Positions 6,778-53,437 of a DNA stretch of 64,000 nucleotides are shown here, in pieces. Source of the DNA: Microbacterium wangchenii (lineage in GTDB: Bacteria; Actinomycetota; Actinomycetes; Actinomycetales; Microbacteriaceae); contig NZ_CP038266.1 of NCBI RefSeq assembly GCF_004564355.1, forward strand, positions 3,162,001 through 3,226,000, in the 5' to 3' direction. Position 1 is the stretch's first letter, and the number at the start of each line of letters is the position of its first letter. A program made the position numbers and the translations under genes. The notes beneath the pieces were generated by a model. It did no database searches, had not been told where the DNA came from, and saw nothing but the letters and a program-made list of their open reading frames with translations.

Positions 6778-7454
6778 GACTGGGTCCCTTCTGCGGATGC
6801 CGCGGCATCCGCCGTCGCGTCGATCAGGTCGAGTCCGGTCAGTGACCGGAGCTCGTCGACGGTGTTGTCGCCGAACAGCTCCCGCACGGCGAAGCCCTCC
6901 GCCGTGACGTCGAAGACGGCGTGGTCGGTGTACACGCGCGAGACGCACCCGACACCGGTGAGTGGATACGTGCAGGAGGCGACGAGCTTGGAGCCGCCGT
7001 CCTTGGTCAGGAGATCGGTCATGACGTAGACGTCCTTCGCCCCGATCGCCAGGTCCATCGCCCCGCCCACGGCCGGGATCGCGCCCGGCGCGCCCGTGGA
7101 CCAGTTGGCGAGGTCGCCGGTCTGAGACACCTGGAAGGCGCCCAGCACGCACACATCGAGGTGGCCGCCGCGCATCATCGCGAACGAATCGGCGTGGTGG
7201 AAGTACGCAGCTCCCGCCAGGGCGGTCACGGCCTGCTTGCCGGCGTTGATGAGGTCGGGGTCCACCCGCCCCGGCTCGGGCGCGGGTCCCATGCCGAGCA
7301 GCCCGTTCTCGGTGTGGAGGATGATCTCCTCGTCGGCGGGCAGGAAGTTGGCCACCAGGGTCGGGGCGCCGATGCCGAGGTTGACGTACGCGCCCTCGGG
7401 GATGTCGGCCGCGATGCGGCGGGCCAGGTCGTCGCGGGACAGACGCGTGGTCAT
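6774..7454 (-). CDS. pcaJ: 3-oxoadipate CoA-transferase subunit B
   Basis: 226 residues, the beta subunit of a type I CoA-transferase. The catalytic glutamate is in the conserved ENGLLGMG motif (Glu49), which forms the glutamyl-CoA intermediate. With PcaI it moves CoA from succinyl-CoA to 3-oxoadipate, giving 3-oxoadipyl-CoA for PcaF. The ATG at 7454 overlaps the pcaI stop, and the pcaF start overlaps its own stop, so the three genes are one translationally coupled unit. An acetoacetate CoA-transferase (ScoB) is the main alternative, made less likely by the thiolase and IclR neighbours. Confidence 0.92.
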
Positions 7455-8200
7455 CGCTCTCCTCCTGTCGCAGCCTCCAGCGGCCGCCCTTCCAGGTCCA
7501 CGCCGCCGACGAACTCGCCCTCACGCAGCCAGCGGCGCTCCCCCACGGCGACGACGCGGTCCACGAACAGGCCGGGCGTCACGACGGCCTCGGGGTCCAG
7601 CGCACCCAGCGGCACGATCTCGTCCACCTGCACGATCGTGGTGGCGGCGGCCGTGGCCATGATCGGACCGAAGTTGCGCGCGGTCTCGCGGTAGACGAGG
7701 TTGCCCCACCGGTCGGCGCGGTAGGCGCTGATGAGGGCGACGTCGCCGCGGATCGGGTACTCCAGCACATATGTGCGCCCGTCGATCTCGCGGGTCTCCT
7801 TGCCTTCGGCCAGCTGCGTGCCGACGCCCGTCGGTGAGAAGAACGCGCCGACGCCGGCGCCGGCGGCCCGGATGCGTTCGGCGAGGTTGCCCTGCGGCAC
7901 GAGCTCCAGCTCGATGTCGCCCGCGCGGTAGAGCCCGTCGAAGACCCACGAGTCGCTCTGCCGCGGGAAGGAGCACACGATCTTGCGCACGCGGCGCGCC
8001 GCCAGGAGCGCCGCCAAGCCGGTGTCGCCGTTGCCGGCGTTGTTGTTGACGATCGTCAGCTCGCTCGCGCCGTGGGCGATGAGCGCATCGATGAGCTCGA
8101 CGGGCTGGCCGGCGCGTCCGAATCCGCCGATGAGGACGGTCGCGCCGTCCTGGATGCCCGCGATCGCCGTTTCGACGTCTGGCACGGTCTTGTCGATCAC
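7451..8200 (-). CDS. pcaI: 3-oxoadipate CoA-transferase subunit A
   Basis: 249 residues, the alpha subunit of the CoA-transferase. The opening MIDKTVPDVETAI and the glycine-rich VLIGGFGRAGQP (about residues 21-32) that binds the CoA portion are diagnostic. It pairs with PcaJ. The start is GTG at 8200 with AGGGAG about 7 bases upstream. It is the first gene of pcaIJF-IclR, and its leader contains an inverted repeat resembling known PcaR/PcaU sites. The earlier protocatechuate genes (pcaGHBDC) are not in this window. Confidence 0.92.
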   Translation of the reverse strand: MIDKTVPDVETAIAGIQDGATVLIGGFGRAGQPVELIDALIAHGASELTIVNNNAGNGDTGLAALLAARRVRKIVCSFPRQSDSWVFDGLYRAGDIELELVPQGNLAERIRAAGAGVGAFFSPTGVGTQLAEGKETREIDGRTYVLEYPIRGDVALISAYRADRWGNLVYRETARNFGPIMATAAATTIVQVDEIVPLGALDPEAVVTPGLFVDRVVAVGERRWLREGEFVGGVDLEGRPLEAATGGER

Positions 8201-8255: not shown

Positions 8256-8314
8256 CGCCGCACCGGCCTCGCGCGCCAGGCCTCGTCGCGGCCGATCCGA
8301 CCCGCCCCATCCGC

Positions 8315-8379
8315 GAGACTGCACCCCACCGGCGAGACAGCGGCATTATGTCGGGGTCTCGCCGGTGGCGTGCAGTCTC
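8315..8379. repeat. GAGAC-box palindromic element, copy A
   Basis: Two 27-base arms (8312-8338 and 8356-8382), complementary at all but one position, enclose a 17-base loop. Within them, GAGAC boxes start at 8315 and 8334 and GTCTC boxes at 8356 and 8375, offsets of 0, 19, 41 and 60. Copies B (51554) and C (52510) have the same offsets with different spacers. It lies downstream of the IclR gene at 8422 and upstream of pcaI. There is no T-run, so it does not look like a plain intrinsic terminator. Confidence 0.8.
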
Positions 8380-8421
8380 GCGGGCAGCGGGTCGCGGGGC
8401 GCGGGCGCGGGGCGCGGGGGG

Positions 8422-9192
8422 TCAGCGGGCGTCGCGGAGGGCAGCGTGCAGGTCGCGCGCGGTCTGGACGACGAGGGGGCCGAGGCGGCGCTCGTCCGCA
8501 CGGTCCAGGTGCACCACGAGGCCGATCGCGACCGGCGGAAGCCCCTCGACGCGCGGCAGCGCCGCCGCGACGGAGACGTTGCCGAGGGTCATCTCCTCGC
8601 GCGTCGTCGCGAAACCGCGGGCGCGAGCGCGGTCGATGTCGGCGCGCAGCGCCTCCTCGGCGACGACGGAGTGCTGCGTCTCGAGCTCGCGCGGGGCGCG
8701 CAGATACCGCCGCAGCCACGGCTCGTCGCGGGTCGCGAGCAGCGCTTTGCCCACGCCCGTGGTGTGCAGCGGCCCGCGACCGCCGGCGCGGCTGACCACC
8801 GGGATGGAGTTGAGGCCCGTCACGCGCCCCACGAACAGCACGGCGGAGGTCTCCGGCGATGCGCCGTCGAGCACGCCCAGGTGGACGTTCTCGCCGGTGG
8901 CCTCGTACAGCCGGGCCAGATGCGGCAGCGCCGTCTCGCGCAGCCGCAGCGACAGGGGCGAGAGCTCGCCCAGCTCCCACAGACGCGAGCCGATCGCGTA
9001 GGTGGCACCCGGGCCCCGGGCGAGCAGGCCTTCACGGGCGAGGAGGGCGACCCAGCGGTGCAGCGAGGACAGCGGGATGCCGGTGCGGCGGGCCATCTCG
9101 GCGACGGTCAGCGCCGGCTCGTCCTCATCGAAGCACTCCAGCACCTGCAGCATCCGCCCGAGCGCGCCCCGCTCGTCCGGCCTGGACCCCAT
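8422..9192 (-). CDS. IclR-family regulator next to an MFS transporter
   Basis: 256 residues: N-terminal winged helix (LTVAEMARRTGIPLSSLHRW, about 28-47) and C-terminal IclR effector domain. It starts 9 bases after the stop of the MFS gene on the same strand, so the two form a transporter-regulator operon. It is one of three IclR genes within about 7 kb, each tied to a different aromatic-acid gene set, which suggests it senses the transported compound. The ligand is unknown. The ATG at 9192 has a GGTGAAGG site. Confidence 0.88.
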   Translation of the reverse strand: MGSRPDERGALGRMLQVLECFDEDEPALTVAEMARRTGIPLSSLHRWVALLAREGLLARGPGATYAIGSRLWELGELSPLSLRLRETALPHLARLYEATGENVHLGVLDGASPETSAVLFVGRVTGLNSIPVVSRAGGRGPLHTTGVGKALLATRDEPWLRRYLRAPRELETQHSVVAEEALRADIDRARARGFATTREEMTLGNVSVAAALPRVEGLPPVAIGLVVHLDRADERRLGPLVVQTARDLHAALRDAR

Positions 9193-47877: not shown

Positions 47878-50549
47878 GCGCCGGCGCGACGACGCCGCCG
47901 CCGGGTCTCCCTGGTCTCGAGCCGGGGTTCAGCCGGATCGTGGCGGTCCCCGGCGTCGGTGTGGATTCCGGCGCCGTGCGGGAATGGCACTGTCTCGACA
48001 CCGGCCCGGAGCTGGCACGCCTGGGCGTCCCGGTGGTGGGCACCATCCTCGCGGTGCACGGCAACCCGACCTGGTCCTACCTGTGGCGTGCGCTCGTGAC
48101 GCAGTCGGTGCGCGCGGCCGAGCGCGGCGACCCGGCATGGCGCGTCGTGGCGGTCGACCAGCTCGACATGGGCTTCTCCGAGCGCACGGACGTGGATCGG
48201 CCGCTCGCGCAGCGCGTCGCCGACCTCGGCGCCTTCACGGCGGCGCTCGGTCTGGACGCGCCGGTGGTCACGCTCGGCCACGACTGGGGCGGGGTGGTGT
48301 CCGCCGGCTGGGCGGTCGATCATCCGGAATCCCTCAGGGGCGTCATGCTGCTGAACACGGCGGTCCACCACCCGGAGGGCGTCCCCATCCCCGCACCCCT
48401 GCGGCTCGCCGGTGCCCGCGGAGTCCTCGCCGCCTCGACGGTGGCCACCACCGCGTTCCTGGACACCACGCTCGCCCTCGCCACCCCCGGAGTGGATGCG
48501 GCGACCCGCCGGGCCTACCGGACTCCCTACGGCTCGGCCGCCCGGCGTCGCGCGATCGGCGGCTTCGTGGCCGACATCCCCGCCGACCGCCGGCACCCCA
48601 GCCACTCCGAGCTGGAGCGCATCGCCGCGGGCGTCGCCGAGCTCGAGGTGCCGGCGCTCCTGCTGTGGGGCCCGGAAGACCCCATCTTCAGCGACCGCTA
48701 CCTCGACGATCTCCTGGACCGCCTGCCGCACGCCGACGTGCACCGGTTCGAAGGCGCGAGCCACCTCGTCGCCGAAGACCGCCCGTACGCGGAGGCGGTG
48801 CTGGCCTGGCTCCGCGAGCACTGTGATCGGCTGGCCGCCCCCGGCACGACCTCGCCGGCGCATCCGGGACCGGATGCCGACGACTCGGTGTTCACCCCCA
48901 TCTGGCACGGGCTGGAGGAACGTCGCGCCGACGACGAGACCGCCATCGTGGACATGTCCCCCACGCGCACCGGCGCCATCCGCCGAGTGAGCTGGCGGCA
49001 GCTGGACGATCGCGTCCGGCGCCTGGCCGCGGGCCTCTCCCGCATCGGCGTCCGCAAGGGCGACCGGGTGTCGCTCCTCGTGCCCCCCGGCCCGACGCTC
49101 TCCGCCGTCGTCTACGCGTGCCTGCGGATCGGGGCGGTCATCGTCGTCGCCGACGCCGGCCTCGGCATCCGGGGCCTGACGCGCGCCGTCCGCGGGTCGT
49201 GGCCCGACTTCATCATCGGCGAGACCCTCGGACTCACCGCCGCGCGCGCCCTGGGCTGGCCGGGGGTGCGGATCTCGGCCGCGCGGCTGCCGAAGGCGGC
49301 ATCCGTGGCGCTCGGCGTCTCCTGCAGCCTCAGCGACATCCTCGCCACCGGCACCGGCCAGCCGCTCCCCGAGCCGCCCGGGCCCGGCGACGACGCCGCC
49401 ATCCTCTTCACGTCGGGGTCCACCGGCCCGGCGAAGGGGGTCGCCTACACGCACGGCCAGCTCGCGGCGCTCCGCGACGTGCTCGCCGATCATTTCGGGG
49501 TGACGCAGGAGACGGGCCTGGTGACGGGGTTCGCGCCGTTCGCGCTGCTGGGCCCCGCCCTGGGAACGCGCTCGGTCACGCCCCGGATGGACGTGTCGTC
49601 GCCGCGGACGCTCACCGCGACGGCGGTGGCCGCCGCCGTGCGCGAGTCGGGTGCGGGCATCGTGTTCCTCTCCCCCGCCGCCGTCCTCAACGTGGTGGCG
49701 ACGGTGGATGCCCTCACGGCCGAAGACCGCGCCGCGCTCGCCGGCGTCCACACGTTCCTCTCCACCGGCGCCCCCATCAGCGCTCGCCTGCTCGAGTCGG
49801 CCGCCGAGATCATGCCGAACGCGACCCCGCACACGCCCTACGGGATGACGGAGTGCCTTCTGGTCACCGATGTGACCCTCGACGGGGTGCACGACGCCGC
49901 GCAGGCTCCGGATGCGGGCGTGTGCGTGGGCATGCCGATCGGGGCCAACCGCGTGCTGGTGAGCGCGCTGGACGCGGACGGCCGCGCGACGGGCACGCCG
50001 ACGGCGGAGCCGGGGGTCCTCGGCGAGATCGTCGTCTCCGCCCCCCACCTCAAAGACCACTACGACCGCCTGTGGCTCACCGACCGGGAATCCGCCCGGG
50101 GCACCGAGGGGCTCGATCCCTTCGAGCCCGGCGCGCGCTGGCACCGGACCGGCGACGTGGGGCACCTGGACGAGCACGGCCGCCTGTGGGTGGAGGGGCG
50201 CATGCCGCACGTCCTGGTGACCGCGGACGGCCCCCTCGCCCCCGTCGGGCCGGAGCAGGAGGTCGAACGCGTCGAGGCGGTGCGCCGGGCGGCCGTCGTG
50301 GGGGTCGGACCCCACGGGCTGCGCCAAGCGGTCGCGGTCGTCGAGACCATCCCGCCGACCAAGCGGCCGGCCCTAGCCGAGCCGGGCCTCGCCGCCGCCG
50401 TGCGGGAAAGCACCCGCACCCCGCTCGTCGCCGTCCTGGCCGTGCCGCACCTGCCCACCGACATCCGGCACAACTCCAAGATCGACCGGTCCCGGCTCTC
50501 CCGGTGGGCCGAGGGGATCCTCGCCGGCGGAAGGCCGACAGCGCCGTGA
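47874..50549 (+). CDS. oleBC: OleBC fusion: beta-lactone decarboxylase and beta-lactone synthetase
   Basis: 891 residues. OleB (about 1-318) has alpha/beta-hydrolase fold with HGNPTWSY, Asp nucleophile D137 in LGHDWGG, and SHLVAEDRP. After a linker, OleC (about 340-891) is an AMP-ligase fold: LFTSGSTGPAKGV, TPYGMTE, WHRTGDVGHLDEHGR and the terminal catalytic Lys in HNSKIDRSRL. OleC closes the beta-hydroxy acid to a beta-lactone; OleB removes CO2 to leave the cis-olefin. The GTG start at 47874 overlaps the oleA stop as GTGA, and no stop or ribosome site separates the two domains. This fusion is known from actinobacteria such as Micrococcus. Confidence 0.95.
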   Translation: MSAGATTPPPGLPGLEPGFSRIVAVPGVGVDSGAVREWHCLDTGPELARLGVPVVGTILAVHGNPTWSYLWRALVTQSVRAAERGDPAWRVVAVDQLDMGFSERTDVDRPLAQRVADLGAFTAALGLDAPVVTLGHDWGGVVSAGWAVDHPESLRGVMLLNTAVHHPEGVPIPAPLRLAGARGVLAASTVATTAFLDTTLALATPGVDAATRRAYRTPYGSAARRRAIGGFVADIPADRRHPSHSELERIAAGVAELEVPALLLWGPEDPIFSDRYLDDLLDRLPHADVHRFEGASHLVAEDRPYAEAVLAWLREHCDRLAAPGTTSPAHPGPDADDSVFTPIWHGLEERRADDETAIVDMSPTRTGAIRRVSWRQLDDRVRRLAAGLSRIGVRKGDRVSLLVPPGPTLSAVVYACLRIGAVIVVADAGLGIRGLTRAVRGSWPDFIIGETLGLTAARALGWPGVRISAARLPKAASVALGVSCSLSDILATGTGQPLPEPPGPGDDAAILFTSGSTGPAKGVAYTHGQLAALRDVLADHFGVTQETGLVTGFAPFALLGPALGTRSVTPRMDVSSPRTLTATAVAAAVRESGAGIVFLSPAAVLNVVATVDALTAEDRAALAGVHTFLSTGAPISARLLESAAEIMPNATPHTPYGMTECLLVTDVTLDGVHDAAQAPDAGVCVGMPIGANRVLVSALDADGRATGTPTAEPGVLGEIVVSAPHLKDHYDRLWLTDRESARGTEGLDPFEPGARWHRTGDVGHLDEHGRLWVEGRMPHVLVTADGPLAPVGPEQEVERVEAVRRAAVVGVGPHGLRQAVAVVETIPPTKRPALAEPGLAAAVRESTRTPLVAVLAVPHLPTDIRHNSKIDRSRLSRWAEGILAGGRPTAP

Positions 50550-51514
50550 TCGTCCTCGTCACCGGAGCCTCGGGCTTCCTCGGACGCGCGGTCGCCGCGC
50601 AGCTCATCGCCGACGGCCATCGCGTGCGCACCCTGCAACGACGTCCCTCCGGTGTGGCGGGAGCCGCCGACGTCCTCGGCTCGATCACGTCGCCCGCCGA
50701 CGTCGAGCGCGCCGTCGAGGGAACCGAAGCGGTCGTGCATCTCGCCGCGAAGGTGTCGCTGGCGGGCGCCGCATCCGAATTCCGCGATGTCAACGTGGGT
50801 GGGACGCGAGCCCTTCTCGACGCGGCCGAACGGGCCGGAGCATCCCGCTTCGTGCAGGTCTCCTCCCCCTCGGTCGCGTATGCCGGCGCGGCGCTGGCGG
50901 GCGTCGGGGCAGAACCGGCCGATCCCGCCAGGGCGCGCGGGGACTATGCGCGTACGAAGGCGGAGGCGGAGCTCATCGCACTGGGACGCCATTCGCCGTC
51001 GATGCACGTCGTGGCGGTACGTCCGCACCTCGTGTGGGGTCCGGGCGACACGCAGCTGATCGAACGGATCGTGGCGCGGGCGCGAGCGGGGCGGCTGCCC
51101 CTCCTCAACGGCGGAACGGCTCTCATCGACACGACCTACATCGACAACGCCGCCACCGGCATCTGCGCCGCGGTGGAGCGGGCCGAACAGGCCGGCGGCC
51201 GCGCCTACGTCCTCACCAACGGCGAGCCCCGGCCCGTGGGCGACCTGCTCGCGGGCATCTGCCGTGCGGTCGGTGTGCGGCCCCCGCGGGTGAGCATCCC
51301 GGCGTGGGTCGGGCGCACCGCGGGCTCGGTCATCGAGCGGGCATGGGCGATCAAGCCCGGTGTCGACGAGCCTCCGATGACCCGGTTCCTCGCCGAGCAG
51401 CTCTCGACCGCGCACTGGTTCGATCAGCGCGACACCCGCCGGGCACTGGAGTGGTCGCCGGCGGTGTCGATCGACGAGGGCCTGCGCCGCCTCGCCCTCG
51501 CCTACGCACCCTGA
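50546..51514 (+). CDS. oleD: OleD, NADPH-dependent 2-alkyl-3-ketoacid reductase
   Basis: 322 residues, extended SDR. VTGASGFLGRAV at the N-terminus binds NADPH; the catalytic Tyr and Lys are in YARTKAEAE, and TTYIDNAATG is a usual downstream motif. It reduces the OleA product to the beta-hydroxy acid used by OleC. The start is GTG at 50546 overlapping the oleBC stop. It completes a coupled oleA-oleBC-oleD operon. Similar to 3-beta-hydroxysteroid dehydrogenase-type proteins, but the operon settles the role. Confidence 0.93.
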   Translation: MIVLVTGASGFLGRAVAAQLIADGHRVRTLQRRPSGVAGAADVLGSITSPADVERAVEGTEAVVHLAAKVSLAGAASEFRDVNVGGTRALLDAAERAGASRFVQVSSPSVAYAGAALAGVGAEPADPARARGDYARTKAEAELIALGRHSPSMHVVAVRPHLVWGPGDTQLIERIVARARAGRLPLLNGGTALIDTTYIDNAATGICAAVERAEQAGGRAYVLTNGEPRPVGDLLAGICRAVGVRPPRVSIPAWVGRTAGSVIERAWAIKPGVDEPPMTRFLAEQLSTAHWFDQRDTRRALEWSPAVSIDEGLRRLALAYAP

Positions 51515-51516
51515 CG

Positions 51517-51543
51517 CCCCCTCCCCCTCCCCCTCCCCCTCCC
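51517..51543. repeat. (CCCCCT)n tandem repeat
   Basis: About four and a half copies of CCCCCT just after the oleD stop codon. A homopurine-homopyrimidine repeat could vary in length by slippage. No gene crosses it. Confidence 0.6.
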
Positions 51544-51553
51544 GCCCCCAGCC

Positions 51554-51618
51554 GAGACACCACATTCCGGCTGAGACACCGTGCGTTGCGCGGTGTCTCA
51601 GCCGTTTTCGCGTGTTTC
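51554..51618 (+). repeat. GAGAC-box palindromic element, copy B
   Basis: GAGAC at 51554 and 51573, GTCTC at 51595 and GTTTC at 51614: offsets 0, 19, 41 and 60, as in copies A and C. The inner 14-base arms (51568-51581, 51591-51604) are perfect. Flanks CAGCCGAGACACCA and CGTTTTCGCGTGTTTC match copy C. It follows oleD and is followed by TTTT, so it may also act as terminator. Confidence 0.8.
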
Positions 51619-51692
51619 GTGGTGCGCTCGCCTGGCGGCCGCTAGTGTCGGGCCGCAACGCAGGGGCGGATAATCCACCACGAGGAGGCGCC

Positions 51693-52487
51693 ATGCTGCT
51701 GGCAGGAAAGACGGCCGTGATCTATGGCGGAGGCGGCTCCATCGGCTCGGCCGCCGGCGAGGTGTTCGCCCGGGAAGGGGCGCACGTCGTCCTGGCGGGA
51801 CGCACCCTCGATTCCCTCGAGCGCACCCGGGACACGATCCGCGCACAGGGCGGCCGGGCGGATGCGGACGTGGTCGATGCGCTCGACGAAGACGCGGTGG
51901 CCCGCCACCTCGCCGACGTCGCGCGGACCCAGGGGCGCGTGGACGTCGTGCTCAACGCCATCGGCGCCGACCACGTGCAGGGCCATCCGATCGGCGAGAC
52001 GTCGCTGGAGCAGTTCCTCGACCCCGTCGTGACCTACCTCAGCGCGGCGTTCGTCACCGCGAAAGCGGCTGCCGCAGTCATGACCGTGCAAGGATCCGGC
52101 GTCATCCAGAACATCTCGACACCCGGTGCCCGGCTGGGCGGCGTCGGGATCATCGGCAACGCCGCCCAGAGCGCCGGGCTCGAGGGGTTCTCGCGCGCGC
52201 TCGCCGCCGAGCTCGGACCGGCCGGGGTGCGGGTCCTGTGCGTGCGGCCGCACGCGCTGGCCACCGGAGCATCCGGTTCGTACACGCGCCGGATGTTCGG
52301 CCGCATCGCCGCGCGCGCGGGGATGTCGACGGACGAGTGGCTCTCGGGCGCCGCGGCTGGATCGGCGCTCGGCCGCCTGCCCGGGGCGCGGGATGTCGCG
52401 GAGTATCTCGCCTTCGCCGCATCCGATCGTGCCGCGGCGATGACGGGCGTCGTGGGCAATCTCACCGCCGGAGCCATCCTCGACTGA
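51693..52487 (+). CDS. SDR-fold protein lacking the Tyr-Lys catalytic pair
   Basis: 264 residues. The dinucleotide-binding region GGGGSIGSAAG (about 12-22) is a variant of TGxxxGIG, NAIG is in place of NNAG, and a Ser is in ISTPG. At the YxxxK site (about 156-160) the sequence reads NAAQS, so both Tyr and Lys are missing. It resembles the group with the NADP-binding region but may not be an ordinary dehydrogenase. The ATG at 51693 follows GAGGAGG. It stands between copies B and C of the GAGAC element. Role unknown. Confidence 0.87.
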   Translation: MLLAGKTAVIYGGGGSIGSAAGEVFAREGAHVVLAGRTLDSLERTRDTIRAQGGRADADVVDALDEDAVARHLADVARTQGRVDVVLNAIGADHVQGHPIGETSLEQFLDPVVTYLSAAFVTAKAAAAVMTVQGSGVIQNISTPGARLGGVGIIGNAAQSAGLEGFSRALAAELGPAGVRVLCVRPHALATGASGSYTRRMFGRIAARAGMSTDEWLSGAAAGSALGRLPGARDVAEYLAFAASDRAAAMTGVVGNLTAGAILD

Positions 52488-52509
52488 CCCTAGGCCGCCC
52501 GTCCCAGCC

Positions 52510-52574
52510 GAGACACCAGAAAACGACTGAGACACCGCGCGTCGCGCGGTGTCTCAGTCGTTTTCGCGTGTTTC
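52510..52574 (+). repeat. GAGAC-box palindromic element, copy C
   Basis: GAGAC at 52510 and 52529, GTCTC at 52551, GTTTC at 52570 (offsets 0, 19, 41, 60). The inner palindrome has perfect 23-base arms (52519-52541 and 52543-52565) with a one-base centre. It lies between the convergent SDR and ABC permease genes, and T-rich ends (TTTTC) on both strands are compatible with a bidirectional terminator. Confidence 0.82.
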
Positions 52575-52615
52575 AGCGTGCCCGGGTGCTCACCCAGGCC
52601 CCGGGCGCGAGCCGC

Positions 52616-53437
52616 TCAGAGGTCGCGTCGGCGGATCGCCACGGTCGCGGCGGCGAGGATGAGGGCGACCCATCCGGCCAGCCCGGCCAGCGCGACCAGT
52701 GAGGGGATCTCCGACGGCGTGCTCCCGATGGCGGCCTGGCTGAGCGTGAGCGGCAGCGCCTGCCCCCACAGCGGCCACGCACCGGTGGCGAGCACGGCGA
52801 CGCCCTGCGTCATGAGCTCCAGCACGACGGCGCCGAGCATGATCAGCACGCCGGCGAGCTGGCTGCGCGCCAGGACGCCGATGCCGAGGCCCAGGAGCGC
52901 GAGCAGCGCCACCACACCCGTTCCGCGCGCCATCACGGCGGCGATGTCGGGGATCCCGATCTCCAGCGTCGTGCCGGTCGCGGGCAGCGACACCAGCAGT
53001 GCGACGAGGCTCACGATCGCATACGCAGCACCCAGGACGAGCCCGGTCACCGCCGTGGCGCCGACCTTCGCCGCCAGGATCCGTCCGCGCCGCGGTTCTG
53101 CCAGCGCGGTGGGCACGATGCCCCCGAACCGGTAGTCCGTGGTGCCGGCGAGCACACCGAGCACGAGGACGGCGAGCGCCGCGATGCTGAGCGATCCGCC
53201 GCCGCCACTCGCGCCGAGGGGGCTCAACGACGCCAGCTGGGCGGATGCTGTCGCCACACCGGATGCGGGCAGGTCGTCGCCGAGGGCGTCGGCGCCGGGG
53301 CCGATGGTGCCGCTGGCGAGGGCGGGCAGCAGGACGACGAGCACGAGCTGGGTGGCGACCAGGCCGAGCACGCCGACGGCGAGGGCGACCTTCGTCGCAG
53401 CCGTGGTGGTCAGCTTCAGGAGTTCTCCGCGGAACAT
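52616..53437 (-). CDS. ABC-2 type transporter permease
   Basis: 273 residues, six membrane segments (about 15-37, 80-100, 115-140, 160-185, 190-210, 240-262), all hydrophobic and Ala/Val/Leu-rich. The layout fits ABC-2 permeases. It starts one base inside the ATPase gene (TGATG), so the two form a pair. Polysaccharide, drug or peptide export are all possible. Confidence 0.88.
   Translation of the reverse strand: MFRGELLKLTTTAATKVALAVGVLGLVATQLVLVVLLPALASGTIGPGADALGDDLPASGVATASAQLASLSPLGASGGGGSLSIAALAVLVLGVLAGTTDYRFGGIVPTALAEPRRGRILAAKVGATAVTGLVLGAAYAIVSLVALLVSLPATGTTLEIGIPDIAAVMARGTGVVALLALLGLGIGVLARSQLAGVLIMLGAVVLELMTQGVAVLATGAWPLWGQALPLTLSQAAIGSTPSEIPSLVALAGLAGWVALILAAATVAIRRRDL

Follow-up and report, generated by a model that had tools for sequence, protein, structure and literature searches.

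Four-box palindromes in Microbacterium wangchenii and related genomes, and their association with a predicted AbiEi-Vsr-like nuclease gene

Palindromic elements in the window and the genome

The window analyzed here is a 64,000 nt stretch of the Microbacterium wangchenii genome (GCF_004564355.1, NZ_CP038266.1 positions 3,162,001 to 3,226,000, forward strand), and it contains three 65 bp palindromic elements, A, B and C, each with four boxes of the GAGAC type at offsets of 0, 19, 41 and 60 bases (Table 1). Similar elements are dispersed throughout the genome, where two genes for a predicted nuclease each lie between a pair of them, and it is this association of palindromes and gene that is described below. 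A first-pass annotation had reported A, B and C at these coordinates and with this spacing, in agreement with the window sequence, and the four-box pattern has no match in 100 dinucleotide-preserving shuffles of the window with up to three mismatches permitted. If the conserved CCGC/GCGG extension on both sides is included, element A spans about 8311-8383. There is no Rfam family in the window at gathering thresholds.

Table 1. Palindromic elements in the window, with the positions of their boxes and the genes beside them.
Element	Type	Coordinates	Strand	Box positions	Neighboring genes
A	Class I four-box palindrome	8315..8379	.	8315, 8334, 8356, 8375	Minus-strand genes 7451-8200 and 8422-9153
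B	Class II four-box palindrome	51554..51618	.	51554, 51573, 51595, 51614 (GTTTC)	Plus-strand genes 50546-51514 and 51693-52487 (short-chain dehydrogenase)
C	Class II four-box palindrome	52510..52574	.	52510, 52529, 52551, 52570 (GTTTC)	Convergent genes 51693-52487 (+) and 52616-53437 (-)

Across the 3,828,279 bases of the genome, exact matches to the pattern number 20 per strand, corresponding to 22 distinct places, and 47 places are found when up to three mismatches are permitted; the reversed-pattern control gives none in either scan. With genes called by our own gene caller, 22 of the 47 copies lie between convergent genes, 18 between tandem genes and four between divergent genes, so that the description of the elements as intergenic applies to 44 copies (A, B and C included) and fails for three that are within called genes. 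Two identical 65-mers, at 737729 and 1292979, have unrelated flanks, and with 47 copies in the genome the proposal of a repeat family is well founded. The copies are also clustered, with 11 gaps between neighbors of less than 3.5 kb where 1.93 are expected (maximum 8 over 10000 random draws). Close groups occur in other genomes as well: Microbacterium sp. USTB-Y has four similar copies inside 540 bp (L137:3418-3953), and further groups at L095, L096 and L177 have a spacing of about 126-150 bp. GAGAC avoidance as a restriction-site signal was considered and rejected, as the observed/expected ratio is 1.03 (rank 622 of 1024) in the window and the element loci of this genome.

Distribution of the palindromes

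Exact sites are present in 105 of 247 Microbacterium genomes, with up to 49 in a single genome, and the control gives none in any genome; the copy number in related genomes is thus above chance, as the first-pass annotation had anticipated. Its expectation that the spacing is kept in additional copies also holds, the offsets 0/19/41/60 recurring even with boxes other than GAGAC, and spacers vary between genomes of the genus (among the part of the genomes for which sites are listed). Exact sites are found in six of 299 genomes and two of 85 genera in a sample of the family, and in three of 197 genomes in a sample of the class, all three of them Microbacterium. Among the matches listed from a public genome collection (at least 80 loci), 60 are in Microbacterium, three in Humibacter, three in records titled Microbacteriaceae bacterium and 10 in Actinomycetota metagenome-assembled genomes, with one each in Planococcus, Stenotrophomonas, Rothia and Sinomonas (all by record title, those of the last four possibly mislabelled). 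No stretch of the viral contigs has an exact four-box site.

A predicted nuclease gene lies between two palindromes

Clustering of the 1025 called proteins near elements yields one family that adjoins an element in all eight of its loci, on both sides, and two of these loci belong to M. wangchenii. The protein is about 330 amino acids long and is predicted to consist of an AbiEi-like DNA-binding part, to which AbiEi profiles match, fused to a Vsr/I-Bth0305I-type PD-(D/E)XK-like domain. The predicted structure has a Vsr-like PD-(D/E)XK fold with conserved acidic residues, and the predicted catalytic residues are invariant. The first two members to be scanned lack a Pfam match at 1e-5, and six tested members have nothing above Pfam or NCBIfam cut-offs; a candidate function is offered here for this family. 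The Vsr and I-Bth0305I families are not reached by Pfam, NCBIfam or PDB sequence searches; the two matches returned by the last are to alpha-synuclein and at chance level.

A profile constructed from the eight members has matches in 222 of the 247 genomes of the genus at E <= 1e-15 and in 153 at E <= 1e-80, a cut-off for 'strong' matches that was set after viewing the result table. Strong matches are present in 93 of the 105 genomes with exact elements (carriers) and in 60 of the 142 without (odds ratio 10.6, p 2e-14, with relatedness ignored). In a family sample of 259, matches of more than 300 bits are confined to Microbacterium and the genus of genomes G057 and G179, the same two genera that hold exact elements in the family.

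The loci examined comprise 30 returned by the profile search and 40 that were fetched (20 from genomes without exact GAGAC sites and 20 from genomes with them). When GAGAC boxes with up to four mismatches are sought, the 18 non-carrier loci with a called gene have a palindrome on both flanks in six cases, on one flank in one and on neither in 11, and for the 43 other loci (in which some genes occur more than once) the corresponding numbers are 27, nine and seven. Many of the non-carrier loci have the 0/19/41/60 geometry with other boxes, including GAGAA, GAGAG, GAGAT, GAGAATC and others, and paralogues show GAGCC and GAACC boxes. With up to six mismatches, the median distance between the start codon and the upstream palindrome is 115 bp (n = 62), and in 37 of 58 loci there is overlap between the 3′ palindrome and the stop codon.

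A further, box-free test scores dyad symmetry and repetition at +19 only. Among 90 distinct genes, many of them from related species and not independent (not counting seven loci known to be duplicates and two whose open frames are overlong), 56 pass on both flanks, 22 on one and 12 on neither. None of 120 random window pairs passes, and of 26 further genes within these loci none has two passing flanks and one has a single passing flank, where the palindrome is a GAGAC element. Of 25 weaker paralogues from other genera a single one passes, at L404; this gene comes from another genus of the family and has palindromes with different boxes on either side, and related systems may exist elsewhere.

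Correspondence between palindrome class and nuclease gene

The M. wangchenii genome has two nuclease genes, I (at 2415428-2416375) and II (at 584161-585135), each between two palindromes, and the other 43 copies divide between them, 25 matching the flanks of gene I and 18 those of gene II, with a smallest margin of 0.31. Outside the boxes, element A has an identity of 0.89 to the gene I palindromes and 0.38 to those of gene II, and is assigned to gene I; B (0.69 to gene II, 0.31 to gene I) and C (0.58 and 0.27) are assigned to gene II. Class I is GAGACTGCA-type and class II GAGACACCA-type; in the first-pass annotation the offsets do not change while the spacers of A differ from those of B and C, and the three elements indeed belong to one family but not to one sequence class. 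A third class, GAGACCAGGGATTC-type, is present in the sister genome G378 (C1:1238382-1238446 and 2646801-2646865).

The same correspondence is seen in seven genomes with two testable nuclease genes each, where the palindromes of a pair have a mean similarity of 0.78 to each other and 0.40 to those of the paralogue, and this holds at all 14 loci. Both flanks were good enough for the class-match test in 23 of 35 loci examined.

Anatomy and folding of the palindrome

Alignment of 190 distinct exact sites gives a consensus of CCGY beyond the outer box followed by GAGAC. The four bases after the box pair with their counterparts in 79-89% of sites, and the middle of the 14-base spacer does so in only 53-59%. 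Outer and inner boxes of one element have the same base following GAGAC with a frequency of 0.67, compared to 0.27 between different sites, and the whole extension agrees at 2.35 of four positions compared to 1.45 (computed over 148 groups, either genomes or single loci). This is a direct repetition that a hairpin does not need, and the unit therefore resembles a protein-read half-site that is repeated on a dyad. Expanded versions at L177:6465-6706 have six (3+3) and five (2+3) boxes and keep the 19 bp step.

Single-strand folding is predicted to be strong for A, B and C (z of -9.5, -7.0 and -9.9), and in B and C the inner stem is followed by a short run of T. Compensatory changes provide modest support for pairing: there are 16 paired-to-paired double changes, where shuffles give 10.2 +- 2.4 (maximum 21), and a single position pair, 17/47, accounts for half of the 16. 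The first-pass annotation had left open whether the elements were mobile, protein-bound or folded. Binding by a protein is strongly suggested by the agreement of the extensions together with the bracketing of a predicted DNA-binding nuclease gene by palindromes of its own class; folding is favored by the predicted stability, but not by the pairing in the middle of the spacers.

Fixed gene positions and turnover of sites

The 92 distinct nuclease loci occupy few syntenic positions (55, 27, 3, 3, 2, 1 and 1 loci), and a freely mobile nuclease unit was rejected on this ground. At one given position the box class varies widely. The neighbors at position I in several loci include genes for a 961-residue and a 272-residue protein. 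In 30 genomes without a strong nuclease the 961-residue neighbor is present in all 30, and the 272-residue gene lies beside it in nine. Seven of these nine empty positions have no palindrome, one (L366) has a threshold-level hairpin without GA-type boxes, and one (L384) has a degenerate single palindrome between the two genes, one base shorter and with GAAAC boxes, in a genome without a nuclease match; it is as if this palindrome had been left behind after loss of the gene.

Comparison with G378 shows that 39 of the 47 copies are common to both genomes (flanks 83-98% identical), with three further shared copies (two at L071 and one at L091). Element B is among those present in G378; C is absent from the matching place, which has about 650 bp of other sequence instead, one copy (L078) was not located, and G378 holds copies unseen in M. 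wangchenii. Across the compared copies there are changes at 26 of 780 box positions and 223 of 1755 other positions, the former rate being biased low, since the boxes served to find the copies, and position pair 17/47 has changed from G-C to A-T in eight copies. In more distant species, 16 of 142 copies share both neighbors with a copy in M. wangchenii, 11 of them at nuclease loci and one in G378. The high sharing with G378 and low sharing with distant species indicate that sites are briefly stable and turn over slowly.

At two places the sister genomes differ in copy number. Two palindromes of the same class enclosing one or two genes (3.2 kb; L311:2744-6041) correspond to a single palindrome at L090:2894-2958, and a pair enclosing one or two genes (1.3 kb; L061:3421-4785) corresponds to a single defective copy at L426:9397-9464, which lacks a base of one box. 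These segments are possible instances of cassette loss or gain at repeats.

A proposed role as nuclease recognition sites

We consider it probable that the elements serve as dispersed recognition sites for a small group of nucleases resident in the genome, which copy and correct their own class, a reading that draws on the architecture of the palindromes, their association and class match with the gene, the fixed gene positions, the invariant predicted catalytic residues and the copies at unrelated loci. Two copies of its own palindrome would bracket each nuclease gene, the first some 115 bp upstream and the second at or over the stop codon. The nuclease would most likely bind four half-sites (YGAGACNNCR for GAGAC classes), two of them forward and followed by two in reverse, with 19-22-19 bp spacing. 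Nicking or cleavage of the palindrome could lead to copies being written to new intergenic sites, and could also permit old copies to be brought into line with the current sequence. The gene would be inherited vertically at a few fixed positions, its palindrome class drifting with it and differing between paralogues.

Several observations weigh against this. First, we infer binding, cleavage, the copying step and host benefit, and the predicted structure is based on five aligned sequences, for which Foldseek alone has no match at E <= 0.001. Second, the association is incomplete: 12 of the 105 carriers have no strong nuclease match, four or so non-carrier loci have no recognizable palindrome, and 12 of the 90 genes in the box-free test lack both flanks and 22 have one only. 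Moreover, two of 30 nuclease-free windows (L365 and L366) reach the thresholds with hairpins that resemble plain terminators, and passes on a single flank may therefore be due to chance. Third, the class match could come in part from gene conversion between the two flanks, and the correlation of protein distance with box distance (r of 0.54 for the middle part, 0.31 for the winged helix-turn-helix and 0.30 for the nuclease part) is confounded by ancestry. Finally, recent movement of elements is rare, most of them being at the same places in sister genomes, and no clean insertion with target duplication was found, the one near-empty site (L329 compared to L425) showing about 113 bp of additional DNA without an evident duplication.

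Three other explanations deserve consideration. The protein could be a nuclease-fused autoregulator or toxin-antitoxin relative, with the upstream palindrome as its operator; the scattered copies would then serve as decoys, insulators or regulated sites and would not move. The position of the upstream palindrome, the AbiEi profile matches and the stability of most sites between sister species are consistent with this, as is the binding of AbiEi antitoxins to two 23 bp inverted repeats in their own promoters, and of Rv2827c to four, described in passages of PMC7319586. Nevertheless, the copy at or over the stop codon is no operator, the dispersed copies favor gene 3′ ends over promoters, identical copies occur at unrelated places, and sites turn over at the genus scale, and we regard this explanation as unlikely. 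Slightly less likely again is that the elements are mainly bidirectional terminators or RNA-stabilizing hairpins at gene ends, one of which the nuclease uses as its own terminator. The location of copies at gene 3′ ends, the strong predicted hairpins and the T runs in B and C all favor such a role, but it does not account for boxes and a 19 bp step that are kept although spacers change, for directly repeated extensions, for the class match and for bracketing that includes the region upstream of the start, or for the patchy distribution among genomes; a terminator scan, with a rule that requires at least five T residues, has none in 51000-53000. Termination could be a side effect, and either terminator or operator roles may coexist with nuclease recognition. 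That the palindromes are integron-like recombination sites between which gene cassettes are gained and lost is very improbable, for in spite of the excess of closely spaced neighbors and the element-genes-element arrangements described above, there are two clear cases only, for both of which ordinary recombination of repeats some 70 bp long is a sufficient explanation, and of 10 proteins encoded between pairs six match ordinary regulator or metabolic families and the four without a match include nucleases I and II. Cargo cassettes between pairs 0.9-3 kb apart were likewise rejected, as the enclosed genes are mostly ordinary except for the nuclease itself.

Comparison with known systems

Integron attC sites and miniature inverted-repeat transposable elements (MITEs) are also palindromic, with paired boxes and dispersed copies. 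However, the copies described here are scattered rather than arrayed with an integrase, unlike attC sites, and unlike MITEs they have no target duplication evident at the single near-empty site. The predicted nuclease differs from Vsr and the homing endonuclease I-Bth0305I (the EDxHD group) in its fusion to an AbiEi-like part and its link with class-matched dispersed palindromes, and from AbiEi and Rv2827c type IV antitoxins in having a nuclease domain attached and sites scattered genome-wide.

The best-known repeat family tied to a resident enzyme is that of the repetitive extragenic palindromic (REP) sequences and RAYTs, the latter (TnpA-REP) being HUH/Y1 transposases (PF01797). PF01797 has no match in 12 carrier genomes, and matches in five of 14 control genomes, including E. 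coli. In the REP/RAYT system, as portrayed in sections of PMC2817692 and PMC3116915, palindromic intergenic repeats flank the enzyme gene with two copies, each enzyme has its own repeat group, and orthologous RAYTs hold their position while the repeats change yet stay palindromic. All four characteristics are shared here: the repeats are palindromic, the nuclease gene lies between two copies, each enzyme has its own class, and the gene position is fixed while the repeats change. In contrast, the enzyme is predicted to be AbiEi-like and Vsr-like, and the DNA is a 65 bp dyad with four boxes at 19-22-19 and CCGY followed by GAGAC, without the GTAG/GT(A/G)G head beside a 20-40 bp palindrome that characterizes REPs in portions of PMC2817692 and PMC3733652. 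Given this REP-like organization with no PF01797 gene and with a different enzyme and different DNA, we conclude that these genomes appear to have a REP-like system on a predicted AbiEi-Vsr nuclease. No description of a palindrome/nuclease system of this kind was found in open PubMed Central papers. The bracketing of one nuclease gene by each class in the M. wangchenii genome points to an undescribed partnership between an enzyme and the palindromes it probably recognizes.

We suggest tentatively, as a possibility that falls somewhat short of an even chance, that this is a self-perpetuating system in which an AbiEi-Vsr nuclease cuts or nicks a palindrome of changeable sequence and fixed 19-22-19 geometry, copying and homogenizing it genome-wide. 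If so, it would provide a natural series of nuclease and target specificities (GAGAC, GAGAA, GAGAG, GAGAT, GAGCC, GAACC and others), and the paralogue-specific box classes on one geometry would be a data set in which nuclease specificity changes along with dozens of sites. It would then have converged with REP/RAYT, on the basis of a homing-endonuclease-like enzyme; two unrelated enzyme classes obeying one logic would show that partnerships of this sort have arisen repeatedly, and the second would offer a clean case for asking why genomes retain repeats and enzymes of this kind.
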